A stretch of DNA of 64,000 nt, taken from the NCBI RefSeq assembly GCF_004353525.1, contig NZ_CP085524.1:754001-818000 (forward strand), in the 5' to 3' direction. This DNA is from Zhaonella formicivorans. Its GTDB lineage: Bacteria; Bacillota; DUOV01; Zhaonellaceae. This document shows, piece after piece, positions 1,409 to 11,385 of the stretch. The position numbers were made by a program, and so were the translations under genes. Below the pieces are notes generated by a model that searched no databases, was not told the DNA's origin, and worked only from the letters and a program-made list of their open reading frames with translations. Every line of letters starts with the position of its first letter. Position 1 is the stretch's first letter.

Positions 1409-1453
1409 TTACAAATGCTAGATAATATGCATAATATTAAGGAGATAGTCTAC

Positions 1454-1735
1454 ATGGTTGCGCATATAGCATCAAGTGAAGGAGTATACCAGATTGGAGT
1501 TGTAGCAAACTTCACAGGTGTCAACATCAGAACTTTAAGACAATGGGAAGAGGCAGGTTTACTTAAGCCGGCCCGTACTCAGGGCAATACCCGGATGTAT
1601 TCAGCCAATGATATAGATTTAATAAAAAGGATCAAGTTTTTAGTTGAAGACAAAGGAGTTAATTTACCTGGAGTAAAACTGATTTTACAGTTGGAAGATA
1701 AATACGGCAGGGAGATAACTGCCGATGTTGAGTGA
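1454..1735 (+). CDS. MerR-family transcriptional regulator (HspR/GlnR-like size)
   Basis: A 93-residue DNA-binding protein: the winged helix-turn-helix YQIGVVANFTGVNIRTLRQWE, the wing region with RTQGNTRMYSANDIDLIKRI, and a short helix GVNLPGVKLILQLE. It lacks the long dimerisation helix and metal-binding loop of classical MerR proteins and resembles the short HspR/GlnR type. I chose ATG 1454 because AAGGAG (1439-1444) sits 9 nt upstream; the in-frame ATG at 1415 has no ribosome site and lies almost on the promoter. Target genes cannot be read from the sequence; heat-shock or stress control is an inference by family only. Confidence 0.85.
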   Translation: MVAHIASSEGVYQIGVVANFTGVNIRTLRQWEEAGLLKPARTQGNTRMYSANDIDLIKRIKFLVEDKGVNLPGVKLILQLEDKYGREITADVE

Positions 1736-1779
1736 TAAACGATTGCCTAAGTTACTATAAAAAAAGCATAAACACTACA

Positions 1780-1808
1780 TTGATATGCTACGACTATGAG
1801 TTTAAATA
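1780..1808 (+). promoter_or_regulatory. Possible promoter for the trehalose cluster
   Basis: TTGATA (1780-1785), 17 nt, TAAATA (1803-1808). A TATAAT at 1822-1827 lacks a matching -35. If used, the transcript passes the hairpin at 1884-1908 before the first gene, so that hairpin could act as a leader attenuator rather than the end of the MerR gene. Confidence 0.4.
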
Positions 1809-1883
1809 AAATGTCTCCTGTTATAATTTCTTTACGAAATTATTAGTGGGAACTTTTGTTTGACTTCTTCGTTGGCATACATT

Positions 1884-1908
1884 ACGGGAGACGATGTCTC
1901 CCGTTTTT
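1884..1908 (+). terminator. Intrinsic terminator or attenuator between the MerR gene and the GT4 gene
   Basis: ACGGGAGAC (1884-1892), loop GAT, GTCTCCCGT (1896-1904), T-run. It is followed at 1921 by a strong AAGGAGGTGA that precedes only a 13-codon GTG reading frame (1927-1968). Confidence 0.85.
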
Positions 1909-1990
1909 CTTTTGTTTTGCAAGGAGGTGAATAAACAAGCCCACTACGTTTTAACCAATTCAATTTAGATCTACAGGAGGGATTGTTATA

Positions 1991-3208
1991 ATGCGAATTG
2001 CTCAATTGCACTGGGCTTTTCCACCTATCATCGGCGGAGTGGAGAGCCACTTAGCCATGCTGGGACCAGAATTAGTCAAAAACAACTGTTCCGTTAGCCT
2101 TCTCACCGGCGCAGTCAAGGGGTTAAGCCATGAAGACCAGTATGAAGGGATGTACATTAAAAGAACTCAGTACCTGGATTTAAACAGCCTGTCGCCGGAA
2201 AAGATCAGGGCGCAAGCCAAAGAAATCAAGCATGAAATTGAGGAATTTATTAATAAAGTGCGACCGGATCTCATTCACGCCCATAACATGCATTATTTCA
2301 GCCCTGTACATGCCGACATTCTCTATGAGATAAAACAAGCAAATGGCATACCACTAGTCTTAACGGCTCATAATGTATGGGCTGATGCTGACCAAGTCTG
2401 GCAGGAAATGAATAAGAGAGTTCACATTTGGGATGCGGTGATAGCAGTTAGTGATTTCATAAAGAGGGAACTAATACGAGTTGGGTATGACGAGCGAAAA
2501 ATTTCAACCATACATCATGGAATAGATTTAGACAGATTTAAACCATGTACACTTCAAGATACTCATAAAATAAAGCTTAAGTATCCCCAGTTTACTGGAC
2601 GACGGGTGATTTTTCATCCGGCCAGGATGAGCCTGGACAAAGGCTGTCACATCAGCGTTAAAGCCCTGAAACTCATCAGCAAGCAGTTCCCCGAGGTACT
2701 GCTGGTGCTAGCCGGCACCGGAAAGACGGTGGACTGGGGTTCCCAACAGCAACAGGAAGTCAGGCAAATTTTTGGTTTGATAGAGGAGCTGGGCTTAAAA
2801 GACAGCGTTTTTGTAAGCTTTTTTGCCTGGGATGAGATGCCGCTGGTATACAAAGCAGCTGAAATTTGTATCTATCCATCATGTTTTGAAGAACCTTTTG
2901 GCTTGGTAATGCTGGAAAGCATGGCCACGGCCAAGCCTATAGTCGTCAGCCGGGCAGGTGGTATGCCGGAGGTGGTCCAAAACGGCGTCAATGGTTTTGT
3001 AGTACCGATGGAAAACGCAAAAGAATTGGCAGATAAGTGCTGTCAGTTGCTTGCTGACCCTAAATTGAGCCGGCAGATAGGCAGCCGGGGCAGAAGCATG
3101 GTGGAAAAGCGGTGGACAAAGGAAATTATGACCGACAGTACGTTACAAGTGTATAACGGACTCCTTAATAACAGAAGTATCGACGTAAATTTCGATACTG
3201 TTGCTTGA
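1991..3208 (+). CDS. GT4-family glycosyltransferase
   Basis: A 405-residue cytosolic retaining glycosyltransferase with two Rossmann-like domains (GT-B fold). The N-terminal PPIIGGVESHLAMLGPEL is the acceptor-side glycine loop. The C-terminal nucleotide-sugar site has EEPFGLVMLESMA (the E-x7-E motif, about residues 298-310) and GGMPEVVQNGVNGFVVP. ACAGGAGGGATTGTTATA provides the ribosome site for ATG 1991. It precedes the trehalose-6-phosphate synthase and phosphatase genes on the same strand, which suggests a role in making or extending a glucosyl osmolyte or glycolipid. Donor and acceptor are not determinable from sequence; trehalose synthase of the TreT type is an alternative. Confidence 0.85.
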   Translation: MRIAQLHWAFPPIIGGVESHLAMLGPELVKNNCSVSLLTGAVKGLSHEDQYEGMYIKRTQYLDLNSLSPEKIRAQAKEIKHEIEEFINKVRPDLIHAHNMHYFSPVHADILYEIKQANGIPLVLTAHNVWADADQVWQEMNKRVHIWDAVIAVSDFIKRELIRVGYDERKISTIHHGIDLDRFKPCTLQDTHKIKLKYPQFTGRRVIFHPARMSLDKGCHISVKALKLISKQFPEVLLVLAGTGKTVDWGSQQQQEVRQIFGLIEELGLKDSVFVSFFAWDEMPLVYKAAEICIYPSCFEEPFGLVMLESMATAKPIVVSRAGGMPEVVQNGVNGFVVPMENAKELADKCCQLLADPKLSRQIGSRGRSMVEKRWTKEIMTDSTLQVYNGLLNNRSIDVNFDTVA

Positions 3209-6140: not shown

Positions 6141-6174
6141 ATTTGCGTTTTTGTTGGCTAAGCTTATAAATTTT

Positions 6175-6203
6175 GTATTTCTTCCCGGAATCTATACATA
6201 CTA
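6175..6203 (+). promoter_or_regulatory. Possible forespore-type (sigma-G/F-like) promoter of steA
   Basis: GTATT (6175-6179), 17 nt, CATACTA (6197-6203). The -10 matches the sigma-G form CATnnTA exactly; the -35 has one mismatch to GnATR. The ribosome site is at 6229. Chance matches are common, so confidence is low. Confidence 0.35.
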
Positions 6204-6241
6204 GAAATAAAAATGCTTTTACGCAAGCCAGGAGAAAAACC

Positions 6242-7360
6242 ATGTATCTTAAAGGCAAAATAAGGGTGGATAAAAAGACTAAAGAGCTGGTCAAAAGACT
6301 AAAGGTCAACGAGATAGCAGTAATAAACCATAAAGATTTGGATGAGATTGCTGCCTTGGCTATAGTTAAAAGCAAGCCTAAATTAGTTATTAACGCCAGT
6401 CCTTCTATAACCGGTAAATATCCAAACCTTGGACCCCTTCGGCTCTTGGAGGCAGGTATACCGCTGCTCGATGAAGTGGGTCAGGATTTTTTCACAAATG
6501 TCATTGAGGGGCAGGAAATTGAAGTTAGGGATAATGCAGCAATAATTAATGGGCAAAAATACTTTGGAACCATGCTGAACAAAGAAGAAATATTAAACAA
6601 ATTAAAGGTTATTCGGCAAAACTATCAGCAGGAACTAACCAGATTTGTTTACAATACTTTGGAATATGCAGCCAAAGAAATAGAGCTCATTGCTCAAAAA
6701 ATGGACTTGCCTCCTCTCAAAACCAAACTGGCCAAAAAGCATGTGTTAATTGTGGTCCGGGGGCACAATTATCAAGAGGATTTAAAGACAATTCGGCCTT
6801 ACATTCAAGAGGTTCGCCCCGTTTTAATTGGCGTGGACGGCGGGGCTGATGCGCTGCTGGAGAACGGATACAAGCCCGACTTAATTGTGGGCGATATGGA
6901 CAGTGTTACGGATAAGGCTTTAAAAAGTGGTGCCGAATTAATTGTGCATGCTTATTCAAATGGTTACGCACCCGGTTTAAGCAGGCTGCAAAAATTAAAT
7001 TTACATGCTCATATCCTGCCTGCTCCGGGAACCAGTGAAGATATAGCCATGCTTCTCGCTTACGAAAGCGGCGCTGATTTAATAGTTGCCGTAGGTTCCC
7101 ATTCCAATGCCATTGATTTTTTCGATAAAGGCAGGCAGGGAATGTCGAGTACCTTTTTAGTTCGCTTAAAAGTGGGGACAATTCTTGTAGATGCTAAAGG
7201 GGTAAGTAAACTCTACCGGGGTAGAGTCAAAGTGCGGGATATGGTAAAAATTATTGCTGCAGCTTTAATCCCTATTTTTATTGTGCTGATGGTTTCACCT
7301 GTAACACACCAGCTTTTGAGGTTGATGTTTATCCGTTTCCGGCTCTTATTTAGTCTTTAG
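6242..7360 (+). CDS. steA: SteA-like putative cytokinetic ring protein
   Basis: A 372-residue protein with an N-terminal globular domain and a central thiamine-pyrophosphokinase-like fold (VRGHNYQEDL; GVDGGADALLENGYKPDLIVGDMDSV; PGTSEDIAMLLAYE). The C-terminal transmembrane helix is near residues 345-362 (IIAAALIPIFIVLMV). This is the architecture of actinobacterial SteA, implicated in septal peptidoglycan hydrolysis. ATG 6242 was chosen for AGGAG (6229-6233); upstream in-frame codons lack a site. It leads a cluster with a GT2 enzyme, a MraY-like membrane transferase and DUF3866, suggesting cell-envelope work. A division role in this organism is inferred from the family only. Confidence 0.8.
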   Translation: MYLKGKIRVDKKTKELVKRLKVNEIAVINHKDLDEIAALAIVKSKPKLVINASPSITGKYPNLGPLRLLEAGIPLLDEVGQDFFTNVIEGQEIEVRDNAAIINGQKYFGTMLNKEEILNKLKVIRQNYQQELTRFVYNTLEYAAKEIELIAQKMDLPPLKTKLAKKHVLIVVRGHNYQEDLKTIRPYIQEVRPVLIGVDGGADALLENGYKPDLIVGDMDSVTDKALKSGAELIVHAYSNGYAPGLSRLQKLNLHAHILPAPGTSEDIAMLLAYESGADLIVAVGSHSNAIDFFDKGRQGMSSTFLVRLKVGTILVDAKGVSKLYRGRVKVRDMVKIIAAALIPIFIVLMVSPVTHQLLRLMFIRFRLLFSL

Positions 7361-7375
7361 TAGGGAGAGGGTAAG

Positions 7376-8059
7376 GTGAATATGTTGCCGAAAGTTTCAG
7401 TTTTAATGGCTGCGTATAATGAGGAAAGCAGGATTGGAGACACAATAAAGACATTAAGGATGATTCCCGCTATCAAAGAAATTATAGTAGTAGATGATGG
7501 GTCTCGGGATGCTACTTGGCAAAAAGCGCTGGAGGCTGGGTGCAAAGTTATAAAACTTCCTGTCAATTCGGGAAAAGGAGCTGCTTTAAACGCAGGAGCG
7601 GCCAGCGTTACGGGTCAGGTCGTGCTCCTAATTGATGCTGATTTGGGAGCATCAGCTCGGGAAGCTGAAAAATTAATTGAGCCGGTGGTAAATAAGGAGG
7701 CCGATTTAACCATAGCTAAATTCCCACCGAGTCGCGGAAAAGGCGGATTCGGGTTGGTGAAGAAATTAGCGGCTTGGGGTGTTTACCTTTATAGCGGAAC
7801 AACATGCGATTCAGTGCTTTCCGGGCAAAGGGCAATGACATTGGAAGTTTTTAAAAAACTCCTGCCTTTTACTCCTGGTTACAGTGTAGAAGTTGCGGCG
7901 ACAATCAAATCGGCAAAGTTGGGGATTAAAATATTGGAAATTCCGGTAGAAATGTCCCATCGGGTAACCGGAAGGGATTTTCCGGGGTTTTGCCACCGTG
8001 GCAGGCAATTCTGGCATATTTTTTTGTTTTTGCTCAGTAAGGCGGGTACAAGATGTTAG
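7376..8059 (+). CDS. GT2-family glycosyltransferase
   Basis: A 227-residue GT-A-fold enzyme: VSVLMAAYNEESRIGDTI at the N-terminus, VVDDGSRD (nucleotide binding), then the metal-binding LIDADLG (DxD-like), and GQRAM near residue 145. It has no clear transmembrane helix, though its C-terminus is hydrophobic, so it probably sits at the membrane face. It overlaps the next gene by 7 bp. It resembles polyprenyl-phosphate-sugar transferases in size, and its pairing with a MraY-like transferase fits lipid-linked sugar assembly. The start is GTG 7376 after GAGAGGG; ATG 7382 is possible. Confidence 0.85.
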   Translation: MNMLPKVSVLMAAYNEESRIGDTIKTLRMIPAIKEIIVVDDGSRDATWQKALEAGCKVIKLPVNSGKGAALNAGAASVTGQVVLLIDADLGASAREAEKLIEPVVNKEADLTIAKFPPSRGKGGFGLVKKLAAWGVYLYSGTTCDSVLSGQRAMTLEVFKKLLPFTPGYSVEVAATIKSAKLGIKILEIPVEMSHRVTGRDFPGFCHRGRQFWHIFLFLLSKAGTRC

Positions 8060-8874
8060 CCCGGGCAATAATATTGCTGGTTACTGGTTTTGTTTGCCAC
8101 CGGTTGTCTGGACCTATAATTCTTAAGCTTATGCAAGCAAATGCCTTGGTCCGCACGAATTATTTGGGAAAAGAAATAATTACGGCAGGAGGGTTAACAA
8201 TCTTTAGCAGTCTGCTAGTAAGCATATTTTTTGTCAGTGCAATTTTTCCGGAGCAACAGCTTCCATGGCTGTTTTTCTTTGGCTGTGTTCTGATAACTTT
8301 GGTAGGCCTTTTAGACGACATTTGGGGCAATCATAAAGTTAAAGGTTTGCATGGCCACTTGCGCTCTCTCTGTAAAGGGGAATTGACCACGGGAGGGATT
8401 AAAGCGCTGACAGGCTTTGTCCTGGCATTCTTAACAAGCAGGCATTTTAGCCAAGATTATTTGAGTTTGGCAGTAAATGCGCTTTTGCTAGCTTTAGCAA
8501 TCAATGCGCTAAATCTTCTTGATTTGCGTCCCGGCAGGACAATTAAAGTTTTCCTGCTTGGTTTTTTGCTGCTATTCTGGAAGTATGGGTTGTTGGTGGA
8601 ACAGGGATGGATATTAGTTATGGTAGGCGCTTCTCTTTCCTATGCTCCGCTGGATTTCCGCGGAAAAGTCATGCTAGGGGACACCGGTTCCAACCTGCTG
8701 GGCTTTGCCTTAGGATATAGTTTAGTAGCCCTAATCCCTTTGTATACCAAAGCATTTTTGCTGATGCTGCTTGTATTGCTGCACTGGTACAGTGAACGTT
8801 ATTCATTGACCGAGTTCATAGCTCGTGTAAGCATACTTGATTTCTTTGATCGCCTGGGTAGGCCTGAAGTATGA
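8053..8874 (+). CDS. MraY/WecA-like phospho-glycosyltransferase, membrane protein
   Basis: A 273-residue polytopic membrane protein with the hallmarks of the polyprenyl-phosphate N-acetylhexosamine-1-phosphate transferase family: LLDDIWGN (Mg-binding Asp pair), NALNLLDLRPGR and MLGDTGSNLLGF. It is shorter than MraY (about 320 residues) and lies outside the mur cluster, so it is probably not the essential MraY. The last codons share ATGA with the following frame. Linked to steA and a GT2 enzyme, it may start a secondary envelope polymer; the substrate is unknown. Confidence 0.85.
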   Translation: MLARAIILLVTGFVCHRLSGPIILKLMQANALVRTNYLGKEIITAGGLTIFSSLLVSIFFVSAIFPEQQLPWLFFFGCVLITLVGLLDDIWGNHKVKGLHGHLRSLCKGELTTGGIKALTGFVLAFLTSRHFSQDYLSLAVNALLLALAINALNLLDLRPGRTIKVFLLGFLLLFWKYGLLVEQGWILVMVGASLSYAPLDFRGKVMLGDTGSNLLGFALGYSLVALIPLYTKAFLLMLLVLLHWYSERYSLTEFIARVSILDFFDRLGRPEV

Positions 8875-8888
8875 GAGCAGGTGAAGAA

Positions 8889-9962
8889 ATGTTGAGTTTT
8901 AAGCGTGGCAAGGTAGAGGAAGTTTTGGCCAAAAGACCGGGTTGCACGGAAATTCTGGTACAAATAGAAGGGGAACGTTCCAAAGCTATCAATTACGATC
9001 AACTTACAGGCAATATCTCCCCCGGAGACATAGTGGTGGTCAATACTACCGCGGTAGAATTGAATTTAGGCACTGGCGGTTATCATTTCGTGATTAACAA
9101 TCTAAGCCGGGAAAATATGCCTCTGGAAGGTCAGGGCCATATTATGAAATTGCGTTACACCCCTATGCAAATGAAAGTCCTCAGCGTGGAGGAAGAGGCC
9201 AGTCCTTTTCGCAAGAAACTTGAAGTCGCCGATTCTTTAAAGCAAACACCGGTTGTAGCTGCCCTCTTGCACAGCATGTTAGCCCCTGTAGCGCTGGCGA
9301 TTAAAGCCCAGGCTTCGAAAAAAATTCGTGTCGTATACATGATGACTGACGGCGCTGCGCTGCCGCTGGCTTTGAGCAGGATAGTACCGGAATTATTGGA
9401 ACGGGGCTTAATCCACGGAACAGTGACCGTAGGTAATGCCTTTGGTGGGCAAATTGAAGCGGTAAATATTTATTCCGGCTTGCTTGCAGCCAAGTCAGTT
9501 TTGGAAGCTGATATTATTATTGCTGCCATGGGTCCCGGTATAGTAGGAACAGGAACTAAATGGGGCTTCAGCGGTGTGGAACAAGGATTTGTGCTAAACG
9601 CTGCCGCTGTTTTAGAGGGTATACCGCTGGCAGTACCAAGGATAAGCTTTGCAGATCCCCGCTCACGGCATTATGGCATAAGCCACCATACCTTAACTGT
9701 GCTCCAAAAGGTTGCATTAGCCCCCACGGTAGTTCCAATGGCCAGGTTACCGGAAAACCAAATGCAGGTAGTGCTAGAACAATGGAAAGAGGCTCGCTTG
9801 CAGCGGCATTGTCTCAAGGTGGTGGAAGCTGAAAAGCAATTTGAGGAACTGGTTGTTTCAGGATTAAACTTGGCCACAATGGGGCGAAGCCCCGAAAAAG
9901 ATAAAGCATTCTTTTTAACTAGTGTAGCGGCCGGTATTGTGGCTGCTGAACTGGCCGGTTAA
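8889..9962 (+). CDS. DUF3866 family protein
   Basis: A 357-residue cytosolic protein of the DUF3866 family, function unknown. The N-terminus (MLSFKRGKVEEVL, ISPGDIVVVNTTAVELNLGTGGYHFV) looks like a small beta domain. The rest is a Rossmann-like alpha/beta body with GPGIVGTGTKWGFSGVEQG and LVVSGLNLATMGR. ATG 8889 follows CAGGTGAAG; an upstream in-frame ATG (8871) overlaps the previous stop but has no better ribosome site. Its stop overlaps by four bases the stop of the convergent mciZ-like gene. It is commonly found near nudF in Clostridia (recollection), as here. Confidence 0.85.
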   Translation: MLSFKRGKVEEVLAKRPGCTEILVQIEGERSKAINYDQLTGNISPGDIVVVNTTAVELNLGTGGYHFVINNLSRENMPLEGQGHIMKLRYTPMQMKVLSVEEEASPFRKKLEVADSLKQTPVVAALLHSMLAPVALAIKAQASKKIRVVYMMTDGAALPLALSRIVPELLERGLIHGTVTVGNAFGGQIEAVNIYSGLLAAKSVLEADIIIAAMGPGIVGTGTKWGFSGVEQGFVLNAAAVLEGIPLAVPRISFADPRSRHYGISHHTLTVLQKVALAPTVVPMARLPENQMQVVLEQWKEARLQRHCLKVVEAEKQFEELVVSGLNLATMGRSPEKDKAFFLTSVAAGIVAAELAG

Positions 9963-10084
9963 TGCAGCGCAGTGCGGAGAATTTCTTTAACAGTTGTCTC
10001 CGTGGAAAAATTTTGCAAAAAAGTGCTCAGTTCCTTGATCTTGCCAATAAAAGTAAAGGAGTTTTTGGTATAGATAATTTCCAT
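9959..10084 (-). CDS. MciZ-like FtsZ-ring inhibitor peptide, 41 residues
   Basis: A short minus-strand gene with a strong ribosome site: AGGGGG 7 nt before the ATG (complement of 10082-10084). The peptide contains FTFIGKIKELSTFLQNF and ends VKEILRTALH. It has the size and pattern of Bacillus MciZ (about 40 residues, VGKAWEI...LKEY...VKDW), which binds FtsZ and blocks Z-ring assembly in the mother cell. As I recall, B. subtilis mciZ also lies beside nudF and near spoIIM, and here the divergent neighbour is a nudF-type Nudix gene. A sigma-E-like promoter lies upstream. Identity rests on weak sequence similarity plus synteny. Confidence 0.6.
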   Translation of the reverse strand: MEIIYTKNSFTFIGKIKELSTFLQNFSTETTVKEILRTALH

Positions 10085-10126
10085 TACATATCCCCCTGTT
10101 GTTGTGAGATTAATCCAAGTGCTATT

Positions 10127-10153
10127 ATTATATGAATAAGACCAAAAAGTATG
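10127..10153 (-). promoter_or_regulatory. Sigma-E-like promoter of the mciZ-like gene
   Basis: On the minus strand, CATACT (10153-10148), 13 nt, CATATAAT (10134-10127). The -10 has one mismatch to the sigma-E form CATACAAT, and the spacing fits. The -35 overlaps the start region of the divergent Nudix gene. Confidence 0.45.
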
Positions 10154-10162
10154 AGGGGTGGT

Positions 10163-10708
10163 ATGATGGAAGAGCAAACCATACACAGTAAAACTGTCTT
10201 TAGGGGCAAAGTAGTTAGCCTGAGGCTGGAAGAAGTACAATTGCCAGATGGGCGCACAACCACTAGGGAAATTGTAGAACACCCGGGAGCGGTGGCTGTA
10301 ATTCCCCTTTTAAACAGCGGAGAAATCGCCATGGTCAAACAGTATAGAAAACCGGTAGGGAAAGTTTTATACGAACTCCCTGCCGGAAAGCTGGAAAGAG
10401 GGGAAGAGCCTTTAAATTGTGCGCGAAGGGAATTATTGGAGGAAACAGGGCTAACTGCAAGCCAAATAACTAAACTGCTGGAATTTTACACCACTCCCGG
10501 CTTTAGCGATGAAGTGATGCATCTCTATTTGGCCACGGGACTTGAGCAGGGGGAACAGCGGTTGGACAGCGATGAATTTTTGCAGCTGGAGCGTTTTCCC
10601 CTGGCCACTTTGCTGAAAATGGTGCGGGAAGGTCAAATCCAAGATGCAAAGACTATCATTGGGCTGCTATGGTTAGCCAATAAAAATTGCTTGGGAGAAA
10701 AAAGGTGA
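10163..10708 (+). CDS. nudF: Nudix hydrolase, ADP-ribose pyrophosphatase type
   Basis: Hydrolyses ADP-ribose to AMP and ribose-5-phosphate. The Nudix box is complete (GKLERGEEPLNCARRE then LLEETG, about residues 77-99), preceded by ELPAG and followed by FYTTPGFSDEVMHLYLA; the Pro in the latter is typical of ADP-ribose-specific members. About 182 residues. ATG codons at 10163 and 10166 follow GAGGGGTGG; the upstream ATG 10151 has no site. It overlaps the next gene by 4 bp (GTGA). The order nudF, unknown, spoIIM, ..., xerD parallels the Bacillus chromosome. Confidence 0.9.
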   Translation: MMEEQTIHSKTVFRGKVVSLRLEEVQLPDGRTTTREIVEHPGAVAVIPLLNSGEIAMVKQYRKPVGKVLYELPAGKLERGEEPLNCARRELLEETGLTASQITKLLEFYTTPGFSDEVMHLYLATGLEQGEQRLDSDEFLQLERFPLATLLKMVREGQIQDAKTIIGLLWLANKNCLGEKR

Positions 10709-11385
10709 CAAAGGTATTCCAACCACAGGTTTCAGTGACTGCTGACGCCACCGGCGCATATCAGGCGGGAAAAAGTGGAAATCTCGTGATTATAGTAGAT
10801 GTAATTGACATGAGTACCACCTTGGAGAGCGCTTTAGAAGCGGGCGCAACAGCGGTTTTTGGTGCCAGTCCGGCCAGTGTGCGACCGCCTGTGCCGGTAG
10901 ACCCGGGGAAAATAGGATTAGAAGCCGGCAGCTTGGCCGTTAAGTTCCACAGCCCGTTGATAGTGGTGTGTGAACCGCGCTGGGGCAAAAGGTCAGACTT
11001 CATAGCCAGCGCTGCCGAAGTGCTGGAAGGCATCCACCTGGCCGGAGCCGAGATTGCTGACATTATCCCTAATTTAGGGGCCTCTACCGTTAAAATATGT
11101 GATTTTAAACAAAAGGTAGTGGTTGCCATCACCGATACGGGAGGGGTTGCCTTTGATGCGGCATATAATGCGGGCGGAACTGTGATCGTCGGGACTATAG
11201 CCAGAACTTTCCACAGCAAAGGGACAAAACCTGCTCAGAACGCTGTTGCCAGGGCACTGGCAATGGCTCAACAGTTAAAGAAAGACATAAGTGTGGTAGC
11301 TGCCAGCGCCAATTCGCTGGAAGATGTCCTAGCTGCCCAATATATTGGACAGCGCCTTTGGGAAGCAATCAGAAATAAGTATTAG
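10705..11385 (+). CDS. Unrecognised alpha/beta protein, weakly ComB-like
   Basis: A 226-residue soluble protein between nudF and spoIIM. The segment VIIVDVIDMSTTLESALEAGATAVFGASP resembles the strand-loop-helix start of ComB-type 2-phosphosulfolactate phosphatases (there IDVLRAST), and VVVAITDTGGVAFDAAYNAGG and NAVARALAMA recall their second half. The usual Arg is absent and overall similarity is weak, so I give no function. GTG 10705 was chosen for GGGAGA at 10692 and the GTGA overlap with nudF; TTG 10687 is an alternative. Confidence 0.6.
   Translation: MTKVFQPQVSVTADATGAYQAGKSGNLVIIVDVIDMSTTLESALEAGATAVFGASPASVRPPVPVDPGKIGLEAGSLAVKFHSPLIVVCEPRWGKRSDFIASAAEVLEGIHLAGAEIADIIPNLGASTVKICDFKQKVVVAITDTGGVAFDAAYNAGGTVIVGTIARTFHSKGTKPAQNAVARALAMAQQLKKDISVVAASANSLEDVLAAQYIGQRLWEAIRNKY

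Follow-up and report, generated by a model that had tools for sequence, protein, structure and literature searches.

The window, a 64,000-nucleotide stretch of the Zhaonella formicivorans genome, carries a small gene that, by profile and synteny, is an MciZ orthologue with a presumed function in cell division. MciZ is a peptide that stops mother-cell division in Bacillus during spore making. The favoured reading, to which we assign a probability of about 0.85, is a clostridial mciZ orthologue that encodes a sigma-E-driven mother-cell peptide capping FtsZ filaments. Mother-cell expression, FtsZ binding and filament capping by the window peptide are what we infer.

A conserved small gene and its signals

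An ORF of 41 codons plus stop, with an ATG start, is located on the minus strand at 10084-9959. Its end meets the stop of the DUF3866 gene, forming a convergent pair, and it stands head to head with nudF. The features of the locus are:

8871-9962, plus strand: DUF3866 gene (PF12982), convergent neighbour; a locus marker across Clostridia and three Bacillales
9959-10084, minus strand: mciZ-like ORF of 41 amino acids with same-locus orthologues, MEIIYTKNSFTFIGKIKELSTFLQNFSTETTVKEILRTALH
10091-10097, minus strand: Shine-Dalgarno-like AGGGGGA, 6 nt ahead of the mciZ-like ATG
10127-10134, minus strand: sigma-E-type -10 box CATATAAT, 42 nt before the mciZ-like start
10148-10154, minus strand: sigma-E-type -35 box TCATACT, separated from the -10 box by a spacer of 13
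about 10163-10166 (start) to 10708 (end), plus strand: nudF-type NUDIX hydrolase gene, divergent neighbour of the mciZ-like ORF

The frame is open further upstream, as far as a GTG at 10282 that would give it 107 codons. The start was placed at 10084 because conservation, Shine-Dalgarno sequence and promoter all point there. The Shine-Dalgarno-like sequence is less perfect than GAGGTGAT, the form in most relatives. On the opposite strand, the ribosome-site region of nudF shares positions with the -35 box.

A protein search with the window peptide yielded copies with 44-45% identity in two genomes from its own family, and weaker matches in more distant genomes. The order DUF3866(+)-ORF(-)-nudF(+) was read in five loci (L002, L003, L004, L007 and L008). 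The right-hand neighbour is a comB-like gene in L006, and L005 retains nudF, with a peptidase gene where DUF3866 would stand. The weak matches in L012 and L016 were rejected as orthologues, as other genes surround them. Other weak matches in L009-L016 were judged to be chance because their E-values are weak and their open frames mostly long.

A clostridial profile of 16 same-locus sequences was run against 80 named loci with DUF3866 (10054 frames), chosen through that gene alone. Its 43 matches at E<0.01 were without exception on the minus strand, and 42 lay no more than 400 nt from DUF3866. NudF was the right-hand gene or next to it in 30 of the 42 matches with an in-frame start. A location-blind six-frame search with the profile covered 299 sampled genomes of the phylum; 86 matched at E<=0.01 and about 70 at E<=1e-4. 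Beyond L001 and L002, the ORF lay antisense beside DUF3866 in 26 of the 28 loci inspected from this search, some of them places already seen. Right-hand neighbours vary among the relatives (nudF, PHP, comB or spoIIM) and the ORF is constant. Synonymous changes dominate in close pairs (pN/pS 0.09-0.38), hence the peptide appears to be under purifying selection. Because dozens of genomes have orthologues at this position, the ORF is, on sequence evidence, a real conserved gene far beyond chance. It is a clear example of a conserved small gene revealed from an intergenic gap.

Most relatives of the peptide have 40-44 amino acids. The matching frame is much longer in some genomes, with 108 or more codons (e.g., L021, 1300-1623, minus strand). 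Desulforamulus putei has a same-locus profile match that lacks an in-frame start codon (L049, 4212-4355, minus strand); judged from its sequence, either the gene has decayed there or the sequence contains an error.

The promoter was sought with a strict sigma-E pattern (-35 [GT][ACT]ATA.., spacer 13-15, -10 CATA...T). It was present in 43 of 53 upstream regions; dinucleotide shuffles led to an expectation of 0.3 and to no more than 3 in any of 200 rounds. A looser scoring was dropped because its null scored high too. The window has TCATACT-N13-CATATAAT; a common form among the upstream regions is GCATATT-N14-CATAAACT, about 18 nt ahead of the start. The gene thus has, as judged by pattern, a conserved sigma-E-type promoter. 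MciZ of Bacillus subtilis is made under sigma-E (PMC7430163; PMC5045927). An earlier note on this DNA had proposed a 41-codon minus-strand ORF between DUF3866 and nudF, with a ribosome site and a sigma-E-like promoter. The ORF and its putative signals were found as described, the ribosome site being imperfect, and the conservation in relatives that the note suggested checking is borne out by the same-locus orthologues.

Several observations concern the surroundings. DUF3866, to which no function is assigned, adjoins the mciZ-like ORF in nearly all loci, often near spoIIM. Between nudF and spoIIM, the gene at 10687-11385 (plus strand) matched 2-phosphosulpholactate phosphatase (PF04029) at a score below the threshold; a gene like it recurs beside the mciZ-like locus in other genomes. 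Upstream, 6173-8874 (plus strand) encodes a SteA-like protein (PF12555) together with two glycosyltransferases (families 2 and 4), possibly a cell-envelope or division cluster.

Relation to MciZ of Bacillales

The window peptide alone had no match in searches of Pfam, PF13072 included, NCBIfam and PDB, and it reached 4 bits against the Bacillales MciZ profile. A Pfam match to Baculo_IE-1 (E 0.14) was regarded as chance. As the single sequence misses the Pfam model, the link to MciZ is made by way of its orthologues in synteny and by comparing one profile with another. Two of these orthologues, L004 and L008 at the same locus, exceed the PF13072 cut-off, with 23.4 and 24.8 bits versus 22.2. Since some clostridial sequences pass the model, clostridial MciZ members may already exist in databases. 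The PF13072 search of the 299 genomes ignored sub-threshold partial matches inside long frames.

Thirty MciZ loci gathered with PF13072 formed the Bacillales set, and the B. subtilis reference was the sequence of PDB 2MRW and 4U39. Comparison of the clostridial and Bacillales profiles with hhalign aligned 38 columns with a probability of 97.4 and a score of 44.3. The Pfam model supplied part of the seeds for the clostridial profile, and the sets are therefore not wholly independent; a strict set, without the eight most Bacillus-like clostridial sequences, limits this overlap and gave a probability of 96.6 and a score of 38.5. The best score among 150 column shuffles was 15.5. In turn, the clostridial profile retrieved a Bacillales mciZ (E 7e-4). 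The window peptide and B. subtilis MciZ share about 18% identity in the profile alignment. Arg20 of the B. subtilis peptide, which we take to be important, corresponds to a Ser in the window peptide.

Gene order provides a second line of evidence. All 30 Bacillales loci have mciZ and nudF in head-to-head orientation, the same as in the window. Three of these loci (L144, L145 and L155) also have DUF3866, in the order and orientation of the window. Gene order and profile thus point the same way. On profile and synteny, the window ORF is homologous to MciZ by common descent. The resemblance to MciZ claimed in the earlier note thus holds at the level of the clostridial relatives' profile. Its length argument stands as well, with 41 amino acids versus 40-41 residues and the conserved G-K kept, and its statement that Bacillus mciZ lies beside nudF was correct.

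Predicted fold, putative FtsZ target and occurrence alongside spore genes

An AlphaFold2 model on a 41-row alignment predicted strands at residues 2-5 and 10-13 and helices at 16-23 and 32-40, with a mean pLDDT of 88.5. Foldseek against PDB gave a single match, the MciZ chain of an FtsZ:MciZ crystal (4u39_J), with E = 5.1, which is not significant alone. The rmsd was 0.9 over 24 columns with TM values of 0.53/0.59. The modelled fold of two strands and two helices agrees with MciZ.

The two strands of B. subtilis MciZ join the C-terminal sheet of FtsZ; the peptide, which touches H10 and strand 9, acts as a filament cap (PMC4929429, PMC8456036). An I293T substitution in B. subtilis FtsZ leads to MciZ resistance (PMC3618327). 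The Zhaonella formicivorans genome encodes one clear FtsZ. Its residues 206-308 are 72% identical to B. subtilis, and I293 is kept. In sequence, the MciZ-binding region of the host FtsZ resembles its B. subtilis counterpart. A second tubulin-family protein with a TubZ-like C-terminal domain (PF22453) is encoded elsewhere in the genome (L157, about 915978-916472; ORF 1435-2796, plus strand) and may be of mobile-element origin.

The window genome carries the spore genes spoIIM and SpoIVA. SpoIVA is present in all but one (69 of about 70) of the genomes matching at E<=1e-4, compared with 250 of the full 299 (the sets were matched up manually; hypergeometric P about 1e-5, with shared ancestry ignored). 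Among the carriers with names are Syntrophomonas zehnderi, Geosporobacter, Desulforamulus aeronauticus, Alkaliphilus and Thermincola. Not all lineages have the gene: no mciZ-like copy adjoins DUF3866 in the loci examined from Clostridioides, Romboutsia and Orenia.

Interpretation and comparison with known FtsZ inhibitors

The proposed mechanism starts once the asymmetric septum has formed. The mother cell's sigma-E would transcribe the mciZ-like gene from its own promoter. The peptide would then bind FtsZ and cap its filaments.

A MciZ homologue under sigma-E may instead have another target or role here, acting on another division protein or affecting FtsZ without an assembly block. The large sequence divergence, the differing C terminus of the clostridial peptides and the second tubulin-family protein in the genome speak for this. 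The predicted fold, length, conserved G-K and hairpin core are nevertheless all as in MciZ and the FtsZ face is conserved, and we regard a different target as unlikely. It is very improbable that the transcript rather than the peptide acts, as an antisense RNA made under sigma-E against DUF3866 and the leader of nudF. The ORF is indeed antisense, this position is conserved and the promoter of the ORF coincides in part with the ribosome site of nudF. Yet selection acts on the amino-acid sequence, the Shine-Dalgarno sequence is conserved, and the ORF persists when the right-hand neighbours change. Many ORFs of similar size overlap the region, which would suit a chance ORF, but conservation, synteny, promoter and profile evidence leave this reading a negligible probability; conservation had already refuted it.

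The clostridial mciZ orthologue, the reading preferred here, has implications for the history of sporulation. The block on mother-cell division probably predates Bacillus and extends beyond it. Promoter type and neighbouring genes recur in many families of Clostridia, which suggests that this active block is an old part of endospore formation. More tentatively, and with somewhat less than even odds, MciZ might be ancestral to endospore formation, predate the split of Bacilli and Clostridia and have stayed grouped with DUF3866, nudF and spoIIM. The clostridial peptides would then form a distinct subfamily with a different C terminus and a partly different FtsZ contact. A peptide of 41 residues is too short for a tree to separate vertical descent from transfer. 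No report of MciZ in Clostridia was found in the searchable literature, which misses most subscription papers; the sole searchable paper joining MciZ, Clostridi- and sporulation used MciZ as a tool in B. subtilis. Clostridial MciZ-like peptides would be divergent natural ligands for the polymerisation face of FtsZ and could help to show which residues matter.

The window peptide is like B. subtilis MciZ (PF13072; PDB 2MRW, 4U39) in its length of 40-41 residues, its co-linear profile and the order of two strands then helix, as predicted for the window. Both genes stand head to head with nudF. They would also share a sigma-E-type promoter and a spore-forming host, as the promoter pattern of the window and the spore genes of its genome suggest. 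Unlike B. subtilis MciZ, the window peptide falls as a single sequence below the Pfam model, has diverged to the low identity given above and is one for which we infer FtsZ inhibition. The clostridial set ends in a C-terminal LH/LN, which was not seen in Bacillales. SulA and MinC are FtsZ plus-end inhibitors at the C-terminal polymerisation face of FtsZ (PMC11938149). The mciZ-like peptide would act on the same face; SulA and MinC, set apart here by description, are larger and have other triggers.
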